This document shows positions 7,100-18,480 of a DNA stretch of 64,000 bases, in pieces. The translations under genes were made by a program, and so were the position numbers. The number at the start of each line of letters is the position of its first letter. Within the stretch, counting starts at the first letter, position 1. The notes below the pieces were generated by a model. That model did no database searches. It saw only the letters and a list, made by a program, of their open reading frames with translations, and was not told the DNA's origin. Origin of the DNA: Desulfomicrobium sp. ZS1. Lineage in GTDB: Bacteria > Desulfobacterota > Desulfovibrionia > Desulfovibrionales > Desulfomicrobiaceae. The stretch is from assembly GCF_024204645.1 (NCBI RefSeq), contig NZ_CP100351.1, forward strand, positions 558,001-622,000, read 5' to 3'.

Positions 7100-8212
7100 C
7101 TATCCGGACCGCCTGCGGAAGATGATCACCGCGATCGTCAGCGTCCCCGCCGCGATGAGCACCAGCGGGATGGCGCTGCGGAGCACGAACCCGGTGGACA
7201 CGTCTTTCAAGAATATGCTTTTCACGATGACGATGAAGTGGCGGACGGGATTGATCAAAGTCGCGGTCTGTAGCCACTGGGGCATGTTCTCCACCGGCGA
7301 GGCGTAGCCCGAAAGCAGGATGGCCGGCATGATGAAGGCGAACGCCCCCAGAAAAGCCTGTTGCTGGGTGGCGCAGATGGCGCTGATGAAGAATCCGACT
7401 CCGGCCAGGGCCAGGAAATAGATGATCGAGCTGGCGTAGATGAGCAGCAGTGAGCCCGAGAGGGGCACTTCGTAAACGAAAATGGCGGCCAGGATGATGA
7501 CCGTGGCCTGGAACATGCCCACCACCAGCACGGCGAAGATTTTGCCGATCATGATCATCTCCGGGGTCAGGGGCGAGACCAGGAGCTGGTCCAGGGTCCC
7601 GTGCTCGCGTTCCCTGGCTACGGACAGGGCCGTGAGGATGAGCGCGCTCACGGTCAGGATGATGGCCACAAGGCTCGGCAGGATGAACCACTGGTATTCG
7701 AGGTTCGGGTTGTAGCGGTGGCGGATGAGTATCTCCGATGCGGGCGGTCGTCCTGCGGCCAGGCTTTGTTCGTTGAAATACTGCGTGGTGATGTCCTGGA
7801 TATAACTGGCCGCGATCTGGCTGCTGTTGGAACGGCGGCCGTCAAGGATGACCTGCATGGGCGCGGGGAGCCCCGCTGCCGCCTTGCGCGAGAAGTCCGG
7901 CCCGAAGCGGACCACCGCGATGGCTTTCTGGTTGTCGAGTATCCCCTCGATCTGTCCTGCCCCAGACAGTTGGATGACCTCCGTGAAGGCCAGGGCGCGG
8001 GCGAAGCGCTGGGTCAGTTCCATCGAAGCCGCGCCGCCGTCTTCGCTGAGCACGGCCAGGGTGTTGTTCTTCACTTCCAGAGTGGCGGCCAGGGGGAAGA
8101 GGATGACCTGCAGAAGAACAGGGATGACCACGAGTTTGCGGCTTTGCGGGTCGGCCAGGAGAATCTGCAGCTCCTTTCTGACCAGGGCCAGGATGCGGCG
8201 CAGCCAGATCAT
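7100..8212 (-). CDS. ABC-2 type permease (YbhR/YbhS-like), distal
   Basis: A 370-residue ABC-2 membrane subunit: an N-terminal membrane anchor (VIPVLLQVILFPLAATLEV), a large periplasmic loop (about residues 45-180), then five hydrophobic segments. The signature REREHGTLDQLLVSPLTP loop is typical of multidrug/ABC-2 exporters. The start at 8212 overlaps the preceding permease by 4 bp (ATGA). It forms a heterodimeric channel with that permease, energised by the fused ATPase. The efflux substrate is unknown. Confidence 0.9.
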   Translation of the reverse strand: MIWLRRILALVRKELQILLADPQSRKLVVIPVLLQVILFPLAATLEVKNNTLAVLSEDGGAASMELTQRFARALAFTEVIQLSGAGQIEGILDNQKAIAVVRFGPDFSRKAAAGLPAPMQVILDGRRSNSSQIAASYIQDITTQYFNEQSLAAGRPPASEILIRHRYNPNLEYQWFILPSLVAIILTVSALILTALSVAREREHGTLDQLLVSPLTPEMIMIGKIFAVLVVGMFQATVIILAAIFVYEVPLSGSLLLIYASSIIYFLALAGVGFFISAICATQQQAFLGAFAFIMPAILLSGYASPVENMPQWLQTATLINPVRHFIVIVKSIFLKDVSTGFVLRSAIPLVLIAAGTLTIAVIIFRRRSG

Positions 8213-9336
8213 GAGTCCAGCCTGCGCCTGGTCTTGAGCGCGGTCAGGGTCAGGAAGAGGACGCTCGTGCCCGTCAGGAAGAGGATGTCGGGGAGCAGGA
8301 TTTCCCAGACATCGCCAGCCAGGAAAATGGTTTGCAGGGAGCTGACGAGGTAGCGGGGCGGGAGTAGATAGGTCAGCGCCCTGATCGGCGCGGGCATGCT
8401 GGCGATGACGAAAAATGCGCCGGAGAGCATGACGGCCGGCAGAAAGGCCACATTGAGTGTCGTCTGGGCGCTGTCGAACTGGTTGCGCATGATCGAGGAG
8501 ATGAGCAAACCAATGCCGAGCATGCTCAGCAAAAAGACCGTCGTGACCAGCAAGAGCGCCCCCACCGACCCGCGAAAGGGTACGCCCATCAGATATACTG
8601 CGCTCAAGGCCACCACGGACATGGAGATCATGCCCAGCACGTAATAGGGCAGGAGTTTGGAGAGCAGTAGTTCGGTCCGGGTCACGGGCGAGGCCAGCAG
8701 GGCCTCCATGGTTCCGCGCTCCCATTCGCGGGCCACGACCAGGGAGGTCAGCATGGCGCCGATGACGGTCATGATGATGGTGATGGAGCCTGGGATGAGG
8801 TAGTGGCGGCTGATTGCCGCCGCGTTGTACCAGTAGCGCACCTGCATGTCCGCGCCCTGGACGGCGTCCCGGCCCAGGTCCCGGGCCCTGGTCTGTTGCC
8901 ATTCCTGCCAGGCGTTTTTCATGAAGGCCGCGATGAAGTTTGCCGTGTTCGGCTCGGATCCGTCGGTGATGACCTGGATGGGGGCTGTCTCCAGGTTATG
9001 GTCAACAATGCGCGAGAAGTCCTGGGCCAGGACCGCGTAGCCCCGTATTATGCCTGTCTCGAGCAGGGCGTCGAGTTTGGCCCGGTTGCCGGGGAATATT
9101 TCGAAATAGGTCGAGCCCGTCAGTTTGGCCGTGAATGACGCCGCCACCGGCCCGCCGTCCTCGTCGCACAGGCCCATGCGCAGGCGGGTGCTGTCCAGGT
9201 TCAGGCCGTAGCCGAAGATGACCAGCAGGATCATGGGCAGGATGAAGGCGATGACGCCGCTGCTCGGATCGCGCAGAATCTGGCGTGTCTCCTTCAGGCA
9301 AAGGGCGGCGAGTCTTCGCCAGGACAGGAACTTCAT
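8209..9336 (-). CDS. ABC-2 type permease (YbhS/YbhR-like), proximal
   Basis: A 375-residue paralog of the downstream permease with the same plan: anchor helix (GVIAFILPMILLVIFGYGL), periplasmic domain, then a membrane block preceded by REWERGTMEALLASPVTRTE. It overlaps the ATPase gene upstream by 4 bp and the second permease by 4 bp, so all three are translationally coupled. Together with the HlyD-type adaptor it resembles the E. coli ybhG-F-S-R drug and cation exporter. Start at 9336 is fixed by the overlap. Confidence 0.9.
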   Translation of the reverse strand: MKFLSWRRLAALCLKETRQILRDPSSGVIAFILPMILLVIFGYGLNLDSTRLRMGLCDEDGGPVAASFTAKLTGSTYFEIFPGNRAKLDALLETGIIRGYAVLAQDFSRIVDHNLETAPIQVITDGSEPNTANFIAAFMKNAWQEWQQTRARDLGRDAVQGADMQVRYWYNAAAISRHYLIPGSITIIMTVIGAMLTSLVVAREWERGTMEALLASPVTRTELLLSKLLPYYVLGMISMSVVALSAVYLMGVPFRGSVGALLLVTTVFLLSMLGIGLLISSIMRNQFDSAQTTLNVAFLPAVMLSGAFFVIASMPAPIRALTYLLPPRYLVSSLQTIFLAGDVWEILLPDILFLTGTSVLFLTLTALKTRRRLDS

Positions 9337-11045
9337 GCCTGCTCCTGGCGGTGAATGAGTTCGACGAACGCGTCGTCCATGGTCGGATCGGGTAGGGCGG
9401 GCGAGGCCACGCTGGCTTTGAGGTCATCCGGCGGGGCCAGGGCTATGAGCTTGCCGTGATAGACCAGGCCGATGCGGTCGCAGTATTCGGCCTCGTCCAT
9501 GAAATGGGTGGTGACCATGACTGTGACCCCTTTCTCCACCACGCCGTTGATATGGTTCCAGAATTCGCGGCGGGTGATGGGATCCACGCCTGAGGTCGGC
9601 TCGTCGAGAAAAAGGATGTCCGGTTCATGCATGGCCGCGCAGGCCAGGGCGATGCGCTGCTTGTAGCCCAGGGCCAGGTCGTCGGTGGCGACACCAAGGA
9701 ACTGTTTCAGGTGGAAGGACTCGATCATCGACTCCACGGCCTGGCGCTGTCTGGGCTTGGGCAGCCCGTACACCCCGGAAAAGAAATCAAGATTTTGGCG
9801 CACGGTCAGCTTGCCGTAGAGAGAGAACTTCTGGGCCATGTAGCCCAGGCGCTCCCTGGCCCTGGCCGGGCTGTGGCGCAGATCGATGCCCATGACCTCG
9901 GCCCGCCCGGAGGTGGGCGTGAGCAGCCCGCACATCATTTTGAAGGTGGTCGACTTGCCTGCTCCGTTGGGTCCGAGAAGTCCGAAAATTTCTCCCTGCC
10001 GCACCTCGAAACTGACATGATCCGTGGCCGTGAAGCTGCCGAAGTTCTTGGTCAGCGCTTCGGCCCGGATCAGGCTTTCGCGGATTTCGGCTCGCGGCTG
10101 CATGGTCGCGGCCAGCGCGGACTCACCACCGGGACCGCCGCCCAGCAGGTCGATGAAGGCGTCCTCGAAGCGCGGGGCGACCTCCTTCCATTCGGGCTGG
10201 CCGGGAATTTCGAGGGCCGTGGGATCTGGACGGGCTGCGCCATCCTTTAAGACGATGCGCAGGTTTCGTCCCTGGATGACCCCGTCGCTGACTTCCGGCT
10301 GGCGGAGCAGCATCGCCAGGGCCTGCCGCCTGCGGCCTTCGACGCCGCCAAGATGCAGGCAACGCCCTTGCATTCGGCCGGTGAGATCGCCCGGCTTGCC
10401 GGTAAAAAGCAGACTCCCCTGGCTGAGCAGAAAGACCTCGTCGCATGCCTCCGCCTCATCAAGGTAGGCGGTGCTCCAGACCACGGCGATGCCTTCTTCG
10501 GCAAGCTCGTGCACCATTTTCCATAGCTCGCGACGGGAGATGGGGTCGACGCCGACTCCCGGTTCGTCGAGCAGGAGCACCTCCGGCGTGCCCAGCAGCG
10601 CGCAGGCCAGGCCGAGCTTCTGCTTCATGCCGCCCGAGAGCCGTCCGGCCAGGCGCGTCGTGAACTCTTTCAGGTCGGTGAAGGCCAGGAGCCGCTCGAA
10701 GGTTTGCGCTCGCTCCTCTCCGGTCACGCCCCGCAAGTTCGCATGCAGGGTCAGGTTTTCGATGACCGAGAGGTCTTCGTAGAGGCCGAATTTTTGCGGC
10801 ATGTAGCCCACCTTGAGACGCAGTTCGGGGGCGGCCACGGGCTCAAGGCCAAGCACGGTCACGTCGCCGCTGTCGGGGCGCAACAGCCCGGCCATGAGGC
10901 GCATGAGGGTGGTTTTGCCCGCGCCGTCCGGTCCGGCTATGCCGGTAATGACCCCTGCTTCGATGGAGCCGCAGATGCCGGCGAGAGCGGGTTTATCCAG
11001 GCCGGGAAAGGTTTTGAGGACCCCGGACAGGGTGACTGCGGCCAT
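9333..11045 (-). CDS. Tandem ABC ATPase (YbhF-like) of efflux system
   Basis: 570 residues containing two complete ABC cassettes. Cassette 1 has Walker A GPDGAGKTT (about residues 38-46) and signature LSGGMKQKLGLA; cassette 2 has Walker A GPNGAGKST (about 355-363). Its signature is degenerate, LALGYKQRIALA in place of LSGG, so the second ATP site may be asymmetric. Walker B motifs LLLDEPGVGVDP and LFLDEPTSGVDP are intact. It sits three bases after the HlyD-like adaptor stop and couples to the two permeases. Such fused ATPases energise YbhFSR-type exporters. Confidence 0.92.
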   Translation of the reverse strand: MAAVTLSGVLKTFPGLDKPALAGICGSIEAGVITGIAGPDGAGKTTLMRLMAGLLRPDSGDVTVLGLEPVAAPELRLKVGYMPQKFGLYEDLSVIENLTLHANLRGVTGEERAQTFERLLAFTDLKEFTTRLAGRLSGGMKQKLGLACALLGTPEVLLLDEPGVGVDPISRRELWKMVHELAEEGIAVVWSTAYLDEAEACDEVFLLSQGSLLFTGKPGDLTGRMQGRCLHLGGVEGRRRQALAMLLRQPEVSDGVIQGRNLRIVLKDGAARPDPTALEIPGQPEWKEVAPRFEDAFIDLLGGGPGGESALAATMQPRAEIRESLIRAEALTKNFGSFTATDHVSFEVRQGEIFGLLGPNGAGKSTTFKMMCGLLTPTSGRAEVMGIDLRHSPARARERLGYMAQKFSLYGKLTVRQNLDFFSGVYGLPKPRQRQAVESMIESFHLKQFLGVATDDLALGYKQRIALACAAMHEPDILFLDEPTSGVDPITRREFWNHINGVVEKGVTVMVTTHFMDEAEYCDRIGLVYHGKLIALAPPDDLKASVASPALPDPTMDDAFVELIHRQEQA

Positions 11046-11048
11046 GCT

Positions 11049-12026
11049 TTAGTCCTCAAGTCGCAGCGTGACGGGCATGCCTTGCCGGAGTCCCTGGTCC
11101 GCGTCCTGCACGGTGACCCGGAAGCGATAGACCAGGGCAGTGCGCAACTCTTCGGTTTCCACGGATTTCGGCGTGAATTCCGCGCGCGCCGAGACGTCTC
11201 CGATCTGCCCGTGGTAGGGTTCGGGCCGCGAATCGGTGAAGACCAGCACTTTGCGGCCGGGATGAACAAGGCCGAGCTGTGGTTCGGGCGCATAGGCCCG
11301 GACACGGACGGGTGAGAGGAGGCTGACGGTCAGCGCCGTGCTGCCGGCCTGGACGATGCTGCCCGGCTCCACGACGCGGGTCAGGACCACGCCCGTCTCG
11401 GGCGCGGTGAGGACCGTGTCGGCCAGCTGGGTTTGGGCCTGGGACAGAGCGGCGTGGGCGGCCTCAAGGCTCGCTTCGGCCTGGGTGATCTGTTCGGCGC
11501 GCGTTCCGGCCAGGAGCAGATCGAGGGCAGCCTTGGCTCCGTCGCGTCTGGCCCTGGCCGTCTGGAACGAAGCGCGCGCGGTGTCGAAGTCCTGCCTGGC
11601 CACGGCTCCGCTGGAGACGAGCTGCTGCTGGCGTTCAAAGATGAGGCGGGCATTTTCGTGCGCGGCCTCGGTTGCCGTCAGATTCTTGCGGGCCTGCTCG
11701 ATGTCTTCGGGGCGGGTGCCGTTTTGGAGCTCCGCGAGCCGTGCTTCCAGTTGGCGGGCCTGGGCACTGGCTTGGTCCACCGCGTTTTCGTAGGGCTGGG
11801 CATCAAGCCGGGCCACTATTTCAGCGGGGGCGACCCCGTCACCTTCCTCCTTCAGAACTTCCGCGACCCTGCCGGCGACCCTGAAACCCAGGCGCACTTC
11901 GCGGATATCGACATTGCCGTGGAACACCGGAGCCGAGCCACTCTGTTCGGCGTTCAGGATTTTCCAGGCATACCATCCGCCCACGGCGGCGGCCAGGAGC
12001 AGAAATATAATGATGGTGCGTTTCAT
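11049..12026 (-). CDS. HlyD family periplasmic adaptor (YbhG-like)
   Basis: A 325-residue membrane-fusion protein: N-terminal anchor (TIIIFLLLAAAVGGWYAW), a lipoyl half-motif (GFRVAGRVAEVLKEEGDGV), a long alpha-helical hairpin (about residues 85-205, Ala/Gln/Arg rich coiled coil), second lipoyl half (TVLTAPETGVVLTRVVEPG) and a beta barrel. It is the first gene of the four-gene efflux operon. I chose the ATG at 12026 because the hydrophobic anchor follows at once; no good Shine-Dalgarno is visible, and an in-frame ATG at 12062 would add 12 residues. Confidence 0.88.
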   Translation of the reverse strand: MKRTIIIFLLLAAAVGGWYAWKILNAEQSGSAPVFHGNVDIREVRLGFRVAGRVAEVLKEEGDGVAPAEIVARLDAQPYENAVDQASAQARQLEARLAELQNGTRPEDIEQARKNLTATEAAHENARLIFERQQQLVSSGAVARQDFDTARASFQTARARRDGAKAALDLLLAGTRAEQITQAEASLEAAHAALSQAQTQLADTVLTAPETGVVLTRVVEPGSIVQAGSTALTVSLLSPVRVRAYAPEPQLGLVHPGRKVLVFTDSRPEPYHGQIGDVSARAEFTPKSVETEELRTALVYRFRVTVQDADQGLRQGMPVTLRLED

Positions 12027-12161
12027 GTTGGAATACGTAAGGCGAATGAGTGTGTTTATCAACTGATTGAGTTAAAATATCGATAAGGTGAGCTTGTGGG
12101 TCGTATAGGTCCCATGGGACGAATTTTTTTGACGGTGTGGCGTGGCATGCTTCTCAAACGA

Positions 12162-12187
12162 GCAACGCCCGGAGATCCGGGCGTTGC
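12162..12187 (-). terminator. Hairpin downstream of peroxiredoxin gene
   Basis: An 11-bp perfect stem, GCAACGCCCGG / CCGGGCGTTGC, with a 4-base loop, 24 bases after the peroxiredoxin stop on the minus strand. It is followed only by TCGTTTG, a weak U-tract, so it may be a terminator or a 3'-end stabiliser. It separates this gene from the efflux operon. Confidence 0.55.
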
Positions 12188-12210
12188 GGGTGTTGTGGAG
12201 GGGTGCGGGG

Positions 12211-12930
12211 TTAGTCGAAGGCTTTGTCCACGGTCCATACTTCCCAGACTTTGCCGACCAGACCGGGGCCGGGTTTGAGGGTCGGTTTGCCGGGACGCCA
12301 GCCTGACGGGGCGGCCTCGGTGCCCTTGCTCTCGCGCACCAGTTGGAATGCCTGGATCTGGCGGAGGGTTTCGTTCACGTTGCGGCCCACCGGAGGAGTC
12401 AGAACCTCATAGGCCTGCACATTTCCGTCCGGGTCGATGAGAAAGCGGCCACGCACATCCACGCCGCTGGCCTCATCGTAAATTCCGTACATTTTGCCGA
12501 CATTGCCGCCGCCGTCGGACAGCATGGGGAAGGGCACGGTTTTGGCCGTGATCATTTTCGAGAGTTCGTCGTCGACCCACATCTTGTGCACGAACATGCT
12601 GTCCGTGCTCATGGACAGGACCTGCACTCCCAGCTTTGCGAATTCCGCGTGTTTCTCGGCGACCGCCGAGATTTCGGTTGCTCAGACAAAGGTGAAATCA
12701 CCTGGATAGAAGCACAGCACCACCCATTTCCCCAGGAAGTCGGACAGTCTGATATTGGTAAAAGCGCCATTGAAGTATGCCGGAGCTGCGAAGTCCGGTG
12801 CTTTTTTTCCGACCTGAATCATGGGACGCGCTCCTTGGACTGGTGTTGCCGCTGCTTGTGGTGTCTCTTCCGGTGCCTGTTCGACTTCAGCCGTGGGCCT
12901 GGTACATCCTGCTGCCAATTCTTCTCCCAT
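12211..12930 (-). CDS. prxU: Selenocysteine-containing peroxiredoxin (AhpC/Prx1 class), UGA read through
   Basis: Two open frames in the same reading frame are separated by a single TGA at 12682-12684, exactly where the peroxidatic cysteine sits in the motif GDFTFV-C-xTE. Read as selenocysteine (residue 83) the gene gives one 239-residue 2-Cys-type peroxiredoxin, collinear with the family up to the GRFLIDP motif. A SECIS-like hairpin follows the UGA. The start at 12930 has CGGAGG; an internal ATG at 12822 with AAGGAG is an alternative that removes a Pro/Ala-rich extension containing Cys9. Besides Cys9 and Cys73 no cysteine exists, so the usual C-terminal resolving VCP motif is absent. It reduces peroxides with a thiol partner. 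Confidence 0.9.
12654..12671 (-). promoter_or_regulatory. Bacterial SECIS element of the selenocysteine peroxiredoxin
   Basis: Immediately downstream of the UGA the coding strand forms a perfect 7-bp stem, TCTCGGC / GCCGAGA, closed by the tetraloop GGUC. The loop begins 17 nt after the UGA, within the 16-37 nt window known for bacterial SECIS hairpins read by SelB, and GGU in the loop matches the E. coli fdhF type. It lies in coding sequence (Ser-Ala-Val-Ala-Glu). Confidence 0.8.
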
Positions 12931-13075
12931 AGTGTGCCTCCGAAGGTTGTATTGATGATAACGATACGTTTTTACATGATGGATAGTTCGTACTTATTTA
13001 ATTGGCGTCGAAAGAACAAGAGGGGTGGCGATATTTCATCAATAAAAGCGGAGAATTCTTGGGTGTGGCGCCGGT

Positions 13076-13111
13076 AAAAAAAACGGGGCTTCGGCGTAAC
13101 GCCGAAGCCCC
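13076..13111 (-). terminator. Strong rho-independent terminator of nrfHA
   Basis: A perfect 12-bp stem, GGGGCTTCGGCG / CGCCGAAGCCCC, with a 3-base loop, followed on the minus strand by an uninterrupted run of eight T residues after one G. It begins about 25 bases after the nrfA stop. Confidence 0.92.
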
Positions 13112-13135
13112 CTCGCGATTCGGGAAACCCTAAGT

Positions 13136-14698
13136 CTAGCTTGCGGCCGGAGCCGGGACAAGGCGCTTGTTGCCTTCCCAGATCTTCTCGGTTTTGGGGG
13201 TGAGTTTGAGATACTTGAACCACTGGTGGCTGGCCATGTGCTCGGGATTCATCTGCAGTTCGCGGCTGTGTTCCATGATGGGCGGCACCAGGGTCTTGAT
13301 GTCTCCGGCCAGGGCCTGGGCAGTGGTGAAGGCCGCCGCCTGGATGGCGATATCCACGGCCTTCTGGCTGTACTGCTGGGACTTGGCCAGGGTATCGAGG
13401 GCCTTGGTCGGGTTGTGGAAGCCCACGCTGTTCTCGGCGGATACCAGATCCCAGAAGAACTGGCCCTTGCGGCACATTTCGCGGGCGTCGATCATGAGCT
13501 GGTCGTAATTGGCCGGTTTTTCGCCTTCGAACTCATTCGCCATGCGGATGGCCTCATGCGCCTTGACCGAGATGTCCTGGGCGGTCATGAGCTGTTCCCA
13601 GACCTTGTCCTGGGTGTAGATGACCCGCTGCTTCAGGTATTCGGGGCTCTTGTCCGTATGGCACTGGCGACAGGCCTTCATGTCCGGGTCCTTCAGGGGC
13701 GAGTTCCAGTGATGGTTGGACATCTTCTTTTTGCCGTCCAGGCGGGTGTAGCTCATGTGGCAGTCGGCGCAGCTGACGCCGGCCGCGCCGTGCACGCCGT
13801 TATGCCAGGTTTCGTACTCGGGGTGCTGAGCCTTGAGCATGGGGGTCTTGGACACGGGATGGACCCAGTCCACGAAGTTGCCTTCGAAGCCGGGCGTCGT
13901 GGTGTCGCCATGGCTCTTGTAGTAGGTGTAGATTTCTTCGGGGTCCTTGCCCTGCGCCCAGGGGAAGACCGGTTTTTTTGCCGGGCCCTGGCCCTTGTCG
14001 GTGAAGTAGTACTCCACATGGCACTGGCCGCACATGAGGGCACGCTGCTCGTTGCGGGGCAGGGTCTTGAAATCTTTGCCTTCGGCCTTCAAGTGATTCT
14101 GCAGGGGCACGGAATACAGACGCAGTTCCATGGTGGCCGGGTCATGACAGTTGGCGCAGCCGATGGTGTTTTCGTCCATGTCGACTTCTTCGCGGAATTC
14201 GTTGAAATCCTTGGCCCAGAACTCGTCGCCGTATTTGCCGACCCATTCGTTCATTTTGGCGCCCTTGCAGTTCCAGCAGGTGGCGGGCAAGTCCGCTTTT
14301 TCGGCGTAGCGATTCAGGCGATCGATGTTCAAAATGTCCTTGATGGCGTACGTATGTCCACGCGCGGCGCGGTACTCGTAGCTGAAGGCATAGCCGAGCC
14401 AGAGGTTCTTGAGGTATGGCTGGGCATGTTTGTAGCCCTCGGGCAGGGGGTTTACGTTGTCGTGCTTGTTATAGGCCACTGACCCGCCGTATTCGGTCAT
14501 GATCTCGGATTCGTTGTTGCGCAGGTACGTTTCGTAATGCAGCGGAAATTCGGACTTGAAGGCGGAGTTCTTGATTTCATCGGATTTGAGGCTGGTCTTG
14601 AAGGTCGGCGGCACGGGCTCGGTCGCTTCGGAACATGCGCTTAGGGCCAAGGCCACCCCCACGGCCAGCATGGCGAAAAGAGGAAAGTTTTTACGCAT
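13136..14698 (-). CDS. nrfA: Cytochrome c nitrite reductase catalytic subunit NrfA
   Basis: A 520-residue pentaheme ammonia-forming nitrite reductase. Heme 1 uses the diagnostic CxxCK site (C141-W-N-C-K145); four CxxCH sites follow at 181-185 (CANCH), 223-227 (CGQCH), 310-314 (CADCH) and 343-347 (CRQCH). The N-terminus has a signal with lipobox LSAC22, so it is a lipoprotein held near its NrfH partner. It reduces nitrite to ammonium with six electrons in the periplasm, serving respiration and nitrite or NO detoxification in sulfate reducers. Its start overlaps the nrfH end by 8 bp. Confidence 0.97.
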   Translation of the reverse strand: MRKNFPLFAMLAVGVALALSACSEATEPVPPTFKTSLKSDEIKNSAFKSEFPLHYETYLRNNESEIMTEYGGSVAYNKHDNVNPLPEGYKHAQPYLKNLWLGYAFSYEYRAARGHTYAIKDILNIDRLNRYAEKADLPATCWNCKGAKMNEWVGKYGDEFWAKDFNEFREEVDMDENTIGCANCHDPATMELRLYSVPLQNHLKAEGKDFKTLPRNEQRALMCGQCHVEYYFTDKGQGPAKKPVFPWAQGKDPEEIYTYYKSHGDTTTPGFEGNFVDWVHPVSKTPMLKAQHPEYETWHNGVHGAAGVSCADCHMSYTRLDGKKKMSNHHWNSPLKDPDMKACRQCHTDKSPEYLKQRVIYTQDKVWEQLMTAQDISVKAHEAIRMANEFEGEKPANYDQLMIDAREMCRKGQFFWDLVSAENSVGFHNPTKALDTLAKSQQYSQKAVDIAIQAAAFTTAQALAGDIKTLVPPIMEHSRELQMNPEHMASHQWFKYLKLTPKTEKIWEGNKRLVPAPAAS

Positions 14699-15167
14699 CG
14701 GCGGCGCTCCTTTTGGCTACGGGGATTTTTGGAGTGTGGGGCACGTGACGGTGGCAGTCGGTGCAGAATTTCTTGCTCTGCATGACCACGGTGGATGTGG
14801 TGGAACCGTGACAGCGCTGACAGTTTGCCTGAGTCACGTCCTTGGTTTCCTCACCCGGGTGGATGAGGTCGGGGATGCTGCTCGTGACAGTGGCGAGGAT
14901 GTCCCTGGTGCCTTCCTTGGTCTTGAACGGGATCTTGGCCACCAAATTGTGCGGGGCATGGCACTCGTTGCAGGCCAGGTCGGCGTGGACCGAACGCTTG
15001 TGCGTCAGTGCCGCCTCGGCCATGGAATGGCAGCTGCCGCAGAACATGGCCTGATCCGTGGTGGTCATGGCCAAAGCCACTCCAACCGTGAACACGATGC
15101 CCGCTACGGCCGGAAGCAGGGCGAAACGCCAGCTCCGACCGCTGGATGCATCATTTTTTGGAGTCAT
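14691..15167 (-). CDS. nrfH: Tetraheme quinol dehydrogenase NrfH
   Basis: A 158-residue NapC/NrfH-type cytochrome: one N-terminal membrane anchor (LLPAVAGIVFTVGVALA) then four CxxCH sites (CGSCH, CNECH, CQRCH, CTDCH). It takes electrons from menaquinol and passes them to NrfA. The start at 15167 has CAGGAGGGAG just upstream. It is the first gene of the nrfHA operon; the leader contains a 10-bp inverted repeat (15195-15236). Confidence 0.96.
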   Translation of the reverse strand: MTPKNDASSGRSWRFALLPAVAGIVFTVGVALAMTTTDQAMFCGSCHSMAEAALTHKRSVHADLACNECHAPHNLVAKIPFKTKEGTRDILATVTSSIPDLIHPGEETKDVTQANCQRCHGSTTSTVVMQSKKFCTDCHRHVPHTPKIPVAKRSAADA

Positions 15168-15194
15168 ACTCCCTCCTGTACAGGTATGTTGGAA

Positions 15195-15236
15195 CCGGAT
15201 CGTTTCCAGTGCCTGATCGTCTCCAGAACGATCCGG
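15195..15236. promoter_or_regulatory. Inverted repeat in the nrfH / response-regulator intergenic region
   Basis: Perfect 10-bp arms CCGGATCGTT (15195-15204) and AACGATCCGG (15227-15236) with a 22-bp spacer containing a third GATCGT. It lies between the divergent nrfH and OmpR-family regulator genes, starting 28 bp before the nrfH start codon. It could be an operator for the neighbouring regulator or a leader hairpin in the nrfHA mRNA. Confidence 0.5.
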
Positions 15237-15379
15237 CCGTACTCAATATTCATGCTGTCCAACCTAGCAGGAAATTTCAACCTTGTGGGGTTAAAGTTGT
15301 AACGGGATTGAAACATGTGTATCGGCATGAGCCGGACATGCGCAACCCTTGAAGGGACTGCGCGGACAGGGAGGGTGGT

Positions 15380-16069
15380 TTGACGCAGCAGAGAATCCTG
15401 ATCATCGACGACGACCCGGACATCGTCACGACCGTCAAAGCCAATTTGGAGCTCGACGGTTTCACGGTGCTGAGCGCAACGGACGGGGCCTTGGGCCTTG
15501 CGGCCGTGCATGCGAACGCGCCTGACCTCGTGCTTCTGGACCTGGGGCTGCCCGACATCGACGGGATCAAGGTCTGCCAGACCTTGAGGCGTGACAGCGA
15601 GGTGCCGGTCATCATGCTCTCGGCCCGGGATACGGTCGCGGACAAACTCCTGGGGCTGGAATGCGGGGCCGACGATTATCTGGTCAAACCCTTCAACGCC
15701 CTGGAACTCTCGGCCCGCATCAGGACCGTGCTGCGCAGGATCAGGCGTAGCGAAACGGCCACTGCGCAACGTAACGGAAATATCATTCTGGATTACCGTT
15801 CCCATGAGGCCACGATCCAGGGCCGCCAGGCGCGTCTGACCCGGACCGAGTTCTCGCTGCTCGAACTCTTCGTCGCCCATCCCGGGGAGACCCTGACCCG
15901 CGATTTCATCCAGAGCCAGAACTGGGGCGATTCCAAGCTCTATTCCCACAGCCGGGCCGTGGATGTGCATGTGCAGCGTCTGCGCAAAAAGATCGAAGAA
16001 AGTCCCCAGGTTCCGCGTTTCATCCTGACCGTAGCCGGAGTCGGCTACAGATTCGAACCCAATCCCTGA
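15380..16069 (+). CDS. OmpR/PhoB family response regulator
   Basis: A 229-residue two-domain regulator: receiver (about 5-120; acidic pocket D10-D11-D12, phosphoacceptor Asp54 in LLDLGLPD, Lys in VKPF) and winged-helix DNA-binding domain (about 130-228, ending in LTVAGVGYRFEP). The start is a TTG at 15380 with GGGAGGG just upstream; no better ATG exists. It is divergent from nrfHA. The c-heme histidine kinase ending at 16876 on the other strand is the likely partner, with only a small RRM gene between them. Control of nrfHA is inferred from position. Confidence 0.92.
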   Translation: MTQQRILIIDDDPDIVTTVKANLELDGFTVLSATDGALGLAAVHANAPDLVLLDLGLPDIDGIKVCQTLRRDSEVPVIMLSARDTVADKLLGLECGADDYLVKPFNALELSARIRTVLRRIRRSETATAQRNGNIILDYRSHEATIQGRQARLTRTEFSLLELFVAHPGETLTRDFIQSQNWGDSKLYSHSRAVDVHVQRLRKKIEESPQVPRFILTVAGVGYRFEPNP

Positions 16070-16188
16070 CAGGCGAACTGCGGGGGGGCCGCGAAGCAGA
16101 GGAGTATTGTTGGCGCAAGGCCGCTGGTGCGGCAGTCGATCAAGGAGGCCGGTGCAGGAGTTTACCGGTTTGCTGAGGAATTTTGGGC

Positions 16189-16215
16189 AAAAAAAAGCCC
16201 GTCAGGTGACGGGCT
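16189..16215 (-). terminator. Rho-independent terminator of the RRM protein gene
   Basis: Stem AGCCCGTCA / TGACGGGCT (9 bp, 2-base loop) followed on the minus strand by eight T residues. It starts about 24 bases after the stop of the RRM gene. Confidence 0.88.
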
Positions 16216-16238
16216 TCATCGCGATCGTAGTGTTCAGC

Positions 16239-16514
16239 TTAGTAGCGTGAACGGCTATCGGAGCGGCTTTCACGGGGCTGCGCTTCGTTGACCTTCAGGT
16301 TGCGGCCCTGACAGTCGGTTCCGTTCAGCGCCTGGATGGACTTGCGTGCGCCTTCATCGTCCATTTCCACGAAGCCGAAGCCGCGTGAACGACCGGTTTC
16401 GCGGTCTTCGATGACATGGGCAGAGCTGACCTGACCATACTGGGAAAACATGGCATGCAGATCAGCATCAGTGGTCGACCAGGACAAATTTCCAACATAG
16501 ATGTTCTTAGACAA
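16239..16514 (-). CDS. Small RNA-recognition-motif (RRM) RNA-binding protein
   Basis: A 91-residue single-RRM protein: RNP-2 IYVGNL near the N-terminus and RNP-1 RGFGFVEM at about residues 41-48, then a short Arg/Ser-rich tail (ESRSDSRSRY). The start is a TTG at 16514 with GGAG eight bases upstream, giving the usual (M)SKNIYVGNL opening; the frame stays open upstream but codes a Phe-rich run from a poly-T leader. Such proteins in cyanobacteria and delta-proteobacteria bind single-stranded RNA and are often cold or stress induced. It has a long AT-rich leader and its own terminator. Confidence 0.9.
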   Translation of the reverse strand: MSKNIYVGNLSWSTTDADLHAMFSQYGQVSSAHVIEDRETGRSRGFGFVEMDDEGARKSIQALNGTDCQGRNLKVNEAQPRESRSDSRSRY

Positions 16515-16875
16515 GACAGTAACTCCAAAGAAAAAAAAGTAAAAAGAAAAACCTTGTTCCTGCTGGAAACAGTTACCGGCAGGATTGCGGAATAATGAGA
16601 TTGAATTCGATGTTGAATTCAGATTTTCATTTCCGCCAAAGTCAGCAGTCACTAGGTGGGCTGGATTTTAATGTCAACGTTTATTATTTTTATTTTTGGC
16701 GGTAATCAGTGCTTCAGGCCGAAAAATATATTCAACATGCTTGAATCGAACGTTTATTTTTTTTAAAATTATTTTGCAGCTGTTTTCCGGATACGGGCTG
16801 TGTGGGTCCAAAATGGTTCGCCGCTTTTCGTTCAAGGGCGATACCGCCGGGTATCGTGCTTCTTCTGGAGTGGGT
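16515..16875. other. AT-rich 361-bp intergenic region: RRM gene leader and promoter
   Basis: There is no coding sequence. On the minus strand it holds a TTGACA box (16677-16672), 17 bp from a poor -10 (TAGTGA, 16654-16649), a short direct repeat around GAATTCAA and a poly-T stretch before the Shine-Dalgarno. If that promoter is used, the leader would be about 130 nt. The strand towards 16875 is the 3' side of the kinase gene, without a clear terminator. Confidence 0.5.
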
Positions 16876-18480
16876 TCATTCTTTTGCCACCGGCAGAGTG
16901 AAGGTGAAGACGCTGCCGCCGCCGGGGTTGTCCTCGACCCAGATACGCCCCCCGTGGGCGCGCACGATCTGGCTGCAGATGGCCAGGCCGAGCCCTGTTC
17001 CTCCGGGTTTTCCTTTGGCGCCGGACGAGGGCGTGGTGTGGAATTTCTTGAAAATGGCTTCCCTCTCGCCGTGAGGAATGCCGGGGCCCTGATCCCGGAC
17101 CTGGATGCGGATTTCTTCCCCTTCGATTCGCAAGGCAAAGCTGATGACTCCGCCTGCAGGGGAGTATTTGATGGCGTTGTCGGTCAGGTTGACGATGACC
17201 TGCTCGATGCGCTCCACATCCGCCAGGGCGTTCATGGGACCGGTTGGCGGGAGACTCAGGCGCAGTCCGCACTCTTCCGCCAGTGGGCTCATGATTTCGA
17301 CGATCTCTCCCACCAGTTCGGTCATGTCCGCCGGTTCGAAGTTCCAATCGATCTTTTCCGCTTCGATGCGGGTGATATCGAAGATATCCGTGACCAGATG
17401 CGTGAGGCGGTTCACGTTCTTGTCCATGATGTGCAGATAGCCCTGCCTGTCCGGGGCGGTCTCCGTACGCCTCAGATAGTCGAGTCCTCCCCGGATGGAG
17501 GTCAGGGGGGAGCGCAGTTCGTGCGACATGGTGGCCAGGAATTCGCTCTTCAGGCGGTCCAGGGTTTTGAGTTCCTCATTGGCCAGGGCCAGCTCGCTGG
17601 TCGCGTTCTGCACCTCCTCCTCCAGCCGGTTGCGCCCCTCTTCCAGCTTTGCGCTCATGCTGCTTAAAGCCTGGCCCACGCGGTCCATTTCATGGCTGCT
17701 GCCGATGCGGATCCGGCCGGGGAAGCGCCCCCGGCTGATGCCGTCGGCCACGGATTCAAGGGTGCCAAGGGGCCTAAGCACCAGATAACGGACCAGGAAA
17801 TACAGGGTCATGACCGTGAGCACGATGAGCGCCAGGGCCGACATGAAGAGCTGCATTTTGCTCCGGCTCAGGGAGTCGAGTACGTTCTGCACGGGCAGGT
17901 GGATGCTCAGACAGCCGCTGACGGTTCCGCTCGTATAATTCTTGTGGCAGGACAGACAGGTCTCGTCGACATAGAGGGGGGCCGAATACTGGAACACCGC
18001 CTCTCCGTCGTGGTCGGCGAGGGCGTAATATTCCTTGTTTTCCGCCTGAGCGAAGCTCTTTATGGCCGCCGTTTCGAATGCATCCGGCCTGTTCTCGGGG
18101 TTCATGGGCGCAATGCCCGCCAGCCGGAAGCGGTACAGGTTCTGGCGGTAGGAGTAGAGGGAGAGCTGCTTGGTGACCATGGACGGGGTGAAGCGCTGCA
18201 TGACGCCGCGATCCGTGGGCAGAAGATCGGTATAGAACGCGCCGCCGCCTTGAGCGCCGGGCGTGTCCTGGCGCAGGAACAGACCCTGACTGTCCGAAAC
18301 CCATTGCCGGGTCAGGATGATCTGGCGGGTCAGGAGACGGGCCTGGTTGACGACTTGGGTCCAGGCCTGCCGCTCCTCGGCTACGCCCTGCCAGAGAAAG
18401 ATGATGCCCAGGAGCGGCACCACGATGCAGACGATGGCCGACATGAACTTGAACTGCAAAGAACCCCGCAAACCGCGCAT
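16876..18480 (-). CDS. Membrane sensor histidine kinase with c-type heme (DUF3365-like) periplasmic domain
   Basis: 534 residues: TM1 (about 12-32), a periplasmic domain (about 33-210) with a c-heme site C175-L-S-C-H179, TM2 (about 211-233), HAMP, a coiled coil, HisKA (phospho-His in TMSHELRSP) and HATPase_c (NLTDNAIKYSP, DQGPGIP, GTGLGLAI). The periplasmic part resembles Tll0287/DUF3365 heme sensors that respond to redox state or small ligands such as NO. The start at 18480 has GGGAGGAA. It probably pairs with the OmpR-type regulator at 15380-16069 beside nrfHA, which would link nitrite or NO or redox sensing to nitrite reduction; the pairing is inference. Confidence 0.9.
   Translation of the reverse strand: MRGLRGSLQFKFMSAIVCIVVPLLGIIFLWQGVAEERQAWTQVVNQARLLTRQIILTRQWVSDSQGLFLRQDTPGAQGGGAFYTDLLPTDRGVMQRFTPSMVTKQLSLYSYRQNLYRFRLAGIAPMNPENRPDAFETAAIKSFAQAENKEYYALADHDGEAVFQYSAPLYVDETCLSCHKNYTSGTVSGCLSIHLPVQNVLDSLSRSKMQLFMSALALIVLTVMTLYFLVRYLVLRPLGTLESVADGISRGRFPGRIRIGSSHEMDRVGQALSSMSAKLEEGRNRLEEEVQNATSELALANEELKTLDRLKSEFLATMSHELRSPLTSIRGGLDYLRRTETAPDRQGYLHIMDKNVNRLTHLVTDIFDITRIEAEKIDWNFEPADMTELVGEIVEIMSPLAEECGLRLSLPPTGPMNALADVERIEQVIVNLTDNAIKYSPAGGVISFALRIEGEEIRIQVRDQGPGIPHGEREAIFKKFHTTPSSGAKGKPGGTGLGLAICSQIVRAHGGRIWVEDNPGGGSVFTFTLPVAKE

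Follow-up and report, generated by a model that had tools for sequence, protein, structure and literature searches.

The prxU gene lies on the minus strand of the window, by which we mean the whole 64,000-nucleotide stretch of DNA that was analysed. It runs from an ATG at 12930 to a stop at 12211 and encodes a 239-residue peroxiredoxin of the AhpC/Prx1 type when one in-frame UGA is read through. This UGA (12684-12682) is codon 83 and falls inside GDFTFV-U-ATE. A preliminary description of the locus, which gave no strand for the gene and overlooked a second conserved translation start at Met37, had placed a single in-frame UGA on the peroxidatic position and expected standard annotation to split the gene. 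Both statements were borne out: the aligned position holds a selenocysteine (Sec) or Cys codon in all 172 aligned sequences, and translation with table 11 breaks the gene into one ORF of 82 aa (12930-12682) and another of 138 aa (12627-12211). The features of the locus are as follows.

12211-12930, minus strand: prxU gene, long form of 239 aa with predicted Sec83 (translation with TGA as U; PrxU model NF040737.1, 412.3 bits against a cut-off of 270).
12937-12941, minus strand: Shine-Dalgarno (SD) sequence GGAGG of the long start, 6 nt before the ATG at 12930 (sequence).
12904-12906, minus strand: codon of Cys9 in the N-terminal arm, GCTRPT here, family consensus GCARPTGGPVGE (invariant C9, R11 and P12; third-position variation).
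12831-12836, minus strand: internal SD AAGGAG, 8 nt before the second start (sequence; SD at this place in 120 of 120 genes).
12820-12822, minus strand: second in-frame start ATG (Met37) of a putative short form of 203 aa with Sec47 (ATG-coded Met in 120 of 120 genes; translation).
12682-12684, minus strand: UGA codon predicted to be read as Sec, Sec83 in the long and Sec47 in the short form (translation, alignment).
12654-12671, minus strand: bacterial SECIS hairpin TCTCGGC-GGTC-GCCGAGA (sequence, pairing, covariation).
12712-12714, minus strand: codon of Cys73, 10 residues before Sec (invariant in an alignment of 47 sequences; Cys in 119 of 120 arm-bearing genes).
12310-12312, minus strand: codon of Ala207, at the usual site of the C-terminal resolving Cys (VCP) (alignment to 2-Cys peroxiredoxins and relatives).

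Upstream of prxU on the same strand, the window contains what we named by eye as an nrfHA-type cytochrome c nitrite reductase pair (13136-15167), separated from prxU by a terminator-like hairpin (13111-13085). No shared operon was found across the family: of 81 loci, 15 had an MBL-type gene and 9 a Fur/PerR-like one (both identified by eye, in a set where many loci are cut by contig ends), and neither was seen among the ORFs of the window at 8000-18000.

The translated product matches the NCBIfam PrxU model (NF040737.1) with 412.3 bits over residues 7-235 of the protein and positions 2-232 of the 233 in the model, and the AhpC model TIGR03137 with 179.8 bits, under its cut-off of 272. PF00578 (AhpC/TSA) scores 133.6 bits, and the AhpC/TSA fold and active-site motif are present. 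An AlphaFold model of the product (47 sequences) has a mean pLDDT of 81, with the N-terminal arm predicted to be disordered (pLDDT below 50 at residues 8-34), and Foldseek recognizes in it a typical 2-Cys peroxiredoxin fold (5zte, TM 0.89 by target length). Thioredoxin-dependent peroxidase activity is taken from the description of the NF040737 model and is putative for prxU. With a very probable Sec codon at the peroxidatic position, accompanied by a bacterial SECIS, prxU is a good member of an already known kind of selenoprotein, PrxU.

PrxU matches above the cut-off were present in 130 of 395 genomes of the phylum. Among the best 80 of 561 relatives, the closest were Desulfomicrobium MAGs (92 and 89% identity), which makes this genus the probable one of the host; by title, 46 of the 80 belong to Thermodesulfobacteriota, 9 to Myxococcota and 18 to nine other phyla, with 7 unplaced, and many of these loci are MAGs, some titled just "Deltaproteobacteria", so that lone odd placements may be naming or binning errors. 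Our sample is non-random and consists of these 80 loci, the best 30 loci of the phylum search and 60 hand-chosen regions of that list. The 172 aligned sequences are 171 loci plus the window, which is also present as its own-genome copy (L100). Classes were read by a first script for 164 of the 172. Of the other 8, six (L033, L075, L183, L184, L188 and L191) have the N-terminal Cys, with internal SDs ranging from -10.8 to -12.9; L128 is truncated, and L173 is divergent and lacks an internal SD (-3.0). The 127 genes with an N-terminal Cys were reduced to 120 by removing four duplicates, the window's own copy L100, and L139 and L157, whose upstream frame was wrong.

The peroxidatic column of the alignment contains TGA in 161 of the 172 sequences and a Cys codon in the remaining 11. 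The 7-bp hairpin with a GGUC loop noted earlier is indeed found downstream; the distance of 17 nt from the UGA that had been assigned to it is correct for the loop but not for the stem, which begins 10 nt after the UGA. The seven pairs of the stem, scored in 79 distinct sequences, are intact in 548 of 553 cells, and when the loop-end pair is counted with them 99.2% of cells are paired, with three pairs double-changed in 91 cells. The covariation score was 0.377. Shuffles gave 0.153, with none of 500 reaching the observed score, and slid partners gave no more than 0.114; two of five covariation measures did not rise above the shuffles, i.e. the number of double-change pairs (3 vs 3.0) and that of further pair types (8 vs 6.6, with 59 of 500 as high). 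The three changing pairs (columns 15-30, 18-27 and 21-24) all link third codon positions in the codon frame of the alignment, and the protein sequence therefore does not explain the covariation. Columns 21 and 24, which lie in the loop as drawn, are A-U or G-C in 79 of 79 sequences, a covariation that we report without claiming a pair. A search of Rfam returned nothing above the gathering score, and at the hairpin gave chance-level matches only.

A search for the Sec machinery in the same genome (3.87 Mb, one contig, 99.97% complete), the check that the preliminary description had proposed, recovered selA (622 bits), selB (365 bits), selD (322 bits) and tRNA-Sec (86 bits), every best match being above its curated cut-off. 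The selD gene (L010, G000:C1:3083134-3084051) contains one in-frame TGA and so probably encodes a selenoprotein too. What looks like the remnant of a second copy of PrxU lies elsewhere in this genome, at G000:C1:2243081-2243236 (L101): it is degenerate and matches just the C-terminal part of the profile (181-232) with 61 bits. Taken from the sequences, the covariation of the SECIS, the occurrence of Sec or Cys in all aligned sequences and the machinery encoded in the genome make Sec incorporation at the UGA of prxU near certain.

The alignment of 47 sequences shows no variation at C9, R11, P12, M37 and C73 and has Thr as its consensus residue at position 207. Cys is absent from position 207 in all of the 77 loci listed from the best 80 of 561 relatives, and prxU itself, with Ala207, does not possess the C-terminal resolving Cys (VCP). 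The Cys9 extension and the missing C-terminal resolving Cys had been put forward as distinguishing this gene from known PrxU. Both are present, but judging by the aligned relatives they are traits of the subfamily and not peculiar to the gene of the window, and the NF040737 model itself covers the N-terminal extension. The start-to-Cys spacing is 8 residues in 107 of 120 arm-bearing genes. Around Cys9, the entropy in 102 sequences is 1.0-1.96 bits at third codon positions (lowest at two-fold codons) and mostly below 0.4 at positions 1 and 2; because the variation concentrates at third positions, the arm appears to be translated, and a purely RNA-level element in this motif is ruled out on the same ground. 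The arm was not found on other proteins with a DNA pattern for GCARPTG, which gave 51 sites in 47 of 395 genomes and misses the window's own genome, where the motif is different. The 9 off-family sites fetched, i.e. those coinciding by eye with no listed PrxU match, were 7 chance frames and 2 PrxU fragments.

Met37 has the properties of a translation start. In the 120 non-redundant genes with an N-terminal Cys (window included), the aligned residue is an ATG-coded Met in every case, and in none of the 120 is the duplex between the preceding SD and the 16S tail weaker than -7.4 kcal/mol (mean -11.2); the AAGGAG of the window, at -7.7, is at the weak end of this range. In the unfiltered set the internal SD reaches -7 in 127 of 127 genes, compared with a mean of -5.8 after synonymous resampling (kinship ignored). 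Among control ATGs, 48 of 716 other in-frame ones and 2.4% of 903 out-of-frame ones reach -7, a comparison that carries a mild bias since, of the ATGs near the core, the one with the strongest SD was tested, a selection that the controls did not undergo. When the nearest ATG was taken instead, an SD core (AGGA, GGAG or GAGG) lay within 21 bases in 124 of 127 genes.

The conservation upstream of Met37 is of a kind expected for nucleotides. Information is maximal at -14 to -9 (AGGAGG) and declines on either side, and Glu at -4 is encoded by GAG in 87 of 87 cases, as against 685 GAG and 1295 GAA codons in the rest of these genes (p 2.5e-39 by Fisher's test, kinship ignored). The internal SD falls in three codon frames (101, 18 and 1 of the 120 genes, according to one of three definitions with differing totals), with at least 6 frame changes on a quick tree, and the hexapeptides preceding Met37 take 114 distinct forms in the 120 genes; these varied frames and hexapeptides indicate that the nucleotides, not the amino acids, are conserved. 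In 90 of 120 genes, the stretch at the internal SD is also less structured than its synonymous shuffles. The long start, too, has an SD that reaches -7 kcal/mol in 112 of the 120 genes (chosen likewise as the strongest), so that both starts are preceded by an SD, the inner one under nucleotide-level selection. Translation from the ATG at 12822 would give a product of 203 residues with Sec47, beginning MIQVGKK. Arm-less short relatives start at the same Met with an SD of their own, and the inner start is therefore probably ancestral. Together, these patterns argue strongly for a dual start of prxU, which is likely to produce a long form with the Cys9 arm and a short form of 203 aa with Sec47. 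The combination of selenocysteine and two starts has, in our estimate, a high probability.

Other explanations were considered for each of these elements. That table 11 yields two ORFs is what one would see if the UGA were a true stop and the gene decayed or its product truncated. A decayed or truncated gene is hard to reconcile with a UGA kept in 161 of 172 aligned sequences, a hairpin that covaries and a complete Sec machinery in the genome, and we regard this reading as having practically no probability. The N-terminus could likewise be read as a lipoprotein signal, given LAAGC at residues 5-9 of the long form, which we take to resemble a lipobox. Just eight residues precede the Cys, however, two of them acidic and without a hydrophobic stretch, and the window has no open ATG, GTG or TTG further upstream in the prxU frame; the family consensus xxVGCARPTGGPVGE and the mostly constant spacing also speak against such a signal, which we rejected as too short and lacking a hydrophobic stretch, its chances being negligible. 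A more substantial, though still improbable, explanation is that the long form alone is made and that the internal SD is either a relic of an ancestral short gene or a ribosome-pausing site. The relic would fit with the short arm-less relatives, which start at the same place with an SD and thus point to an ancestral site; it would nonetheless be expected to decay, whereas the site is kept in 120 of 120 genes, shifts its codon frame, retains GAG in 87 of 87 and stays at a constant distance from an invariant ATG. For pausing, one study states that intragenic SD-like sites have been suggested to slow elongation, although this is disputed, and it also reports that SD sites are depleted within the coding regions of highly expressed genes, which weighs against a pausing role here (PMC5100845).

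We then come to which residue might resolve the oxidized Sec. Among 164 unique sequences, 121 have the arm Cys without a C-terminal Cys, 35 a C-terminal Cys without the arm, 4 both (L192 and L193 with VCP, L184 and L186 with GKVC) and 4 neither (L142, L152, L156 and L159, paralogues forming one clade); in this count L139 and L172 were put by hand among the genes without N-terminal Cys, and L128 and L173 were omitted. The C-terminal Cys of the 35 arm-less genes is found in VCP (18), GKVC (11) or PCGW (6), a resolving function being assumed for the latter two. On a tree of 90 of the 166 unique rows (all arm-less genes and a selection of arm-bearing ones), L134 and L135, which are arm-less and have VCP, are nested among arm-bearing genes next to L126 (99/86), as expected if one Cys replaces the other. 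The near mutual exclusion of Cys9 and the C-terminal Cys suggests, at the level of sequence, that the resolving Cys may have moved to the arm, and we put the chance that Cys9 is the resolving residue at about even. Against it stands a reading in which the reduction of Sec is direct, by an outside thiol, or passes through Cys73, and the arm has another purpose, e.g. partner binding, inter-subunit bonds as in mammalian Prx4, or regulation. Cys73 is the main competitor of Cys9, as it is invariant in the 47-sequence alignment, present in 119 of 120 arm-bearing genes and retained in several Sec genes that have a C-terminal Cys. The four paralogues with neither an N- nor a C-terminal Cys, and the short form, which would be without Cys9 entirely, point the same way. 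The kinship-aware comparison of the two cysteines is underpowered, with three well-supported independent pairs (0 changing the same way, 1.5 opposite, 1.5 without difference), too few for significance. The distribution of 121 and 35 genes with one Cys against 4 with both and 4 with neither, and the position of L134 and L135, count against this reading, which we consider a real possibility at somewhat less than even chances.

Several variants were seen among the relatives. The genes with PCGW (L163, L168-L172) are one clade and add a further place for a C-terminal Cys in PrxU relatives; those with GKVC (L139, L141, L144, L146, L148, L149, L153, L154, L157, L158 and L161), which add another such place, are also one clade, and the motif recurs in L184 and L186. 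In the clade of L142, L152, L156 and L159, the whole protein counted from the proposed start contains Sec but not a single cysteine, and it could represent a "1-Sec" enzyme; for three of these four genes, the genome has a full-length PrxU match as well. Genome G282 carries both L174 and L175, a Sec form and a paralogue with Cys in place of Sec, the latter having retained the arm Cys as well as the second start.

A Sec peroxiredoxin of Eubacterium acidaminophilum was reportedly described by Soehling et al. in 2001. That protein has 203 residues and Sec47, matching the predicted short form of prxU in length and Sec position. Known PrxU (NF040737) and prxU share the Sec at the TxxU peroxidatic position and the AhpC/Prx1 fold. 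Compared with its short relatives, which are arm-less and have a C-terminal Cys, prxU lacks the C-terminal Cys and has a Cys-bearing arm that begins at a separate start further upstream. It resembles the typical 2-Cys peroxiredoxins (AhpC, Prx1-4) in fold (5zte) and active-site motif and differs from them in that Sec replaces Cys and the VCP position is Ala, or Thr in most relatives. Bacterial genes with two in-frame starts include clpB and others, and prxU would be like these in giving, from one gene, a long and an N-terminally shortened form.

Sec peroxiredoxins with a TxxU motif are listed in selenoproteome papers and a review (PMC1794560, PMC13188914, PMC1088965), and according to one of them the selenoproteomes of deltaproteobacteria include such a protein (PMC1794560). 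For Desulfococcus multivorans, a Sec peroxiredoxin is given under two locus tags, dmul_C20060/70 (PMC5109826). These proteins are, like prxU, Sec peroxiredoxins of sulfate reducers and their kin, and the portions of the two papers describing them mention neither an N-terminal Cys nor two starts (PMC1794560, PMC5109826). In the literature searched, whose coverage mostly excludes subscription papers, we found neither the N-terminal Cys arm nor the two starts of PrxU, and no report of two in-frame starts in any bacterial selenoprotein or in any peroxiredoxin. The part that we did not find described is the conserved architecture of two starts, with the Cys arm in one isoform alone.

We propose the following model. 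In this PrxU of AhpC/Prx1 fold, Sec would very likely be inserted at the UGA by SelB, tRNA-Sec and the downstream hairpin, as covariation and machinery indicate. Two in-frame ribosome-binding sites on one mRNA would likely give, in view of the nucleotide-level selection, a 239-aa isoform, whose disordered arm of about 36 residues bears Cys9, and a 203-aa isoform that starts at Met37 and lacks the arm. Peroxide would be reduced by Sec, which is thereby oxidized to Se-OH. A selenenylsulfide would then most likely form with Cys9, either in the same subunit or in an adjacent one, and be reduced by thioredoxin, so that Cys9 stands in for the lost C-terminal Cys; the short form would rely on a long neighbour or an outside thiol. 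We hold each of these last two steps with middling confidence, the odds being roughly balanced. By extension, this widespread class of Sec peroxiredoxins could be a two-isoform enzyme encoded by one gene, in which an arm Cys took over resolving, the ancestral start was retained for arm-less subunits and the ratio of starts sets the number of resolving arms per ring. We advance this full picture tentatively, its likelihood falling a little short of one half.

These results suggest that, in a widespread selenoprotein family, a second start under strong selection is concealed by the way the genes are annotated. They make prxU a directly testable case in which the resolving Cys may have shifted from the C-terminus to an N-terminal arm on part of the subunits, and the isoform ratio could give anaerobes that rely on PrxU for peroxide defence a means of tuning turnover or over-oxidation.
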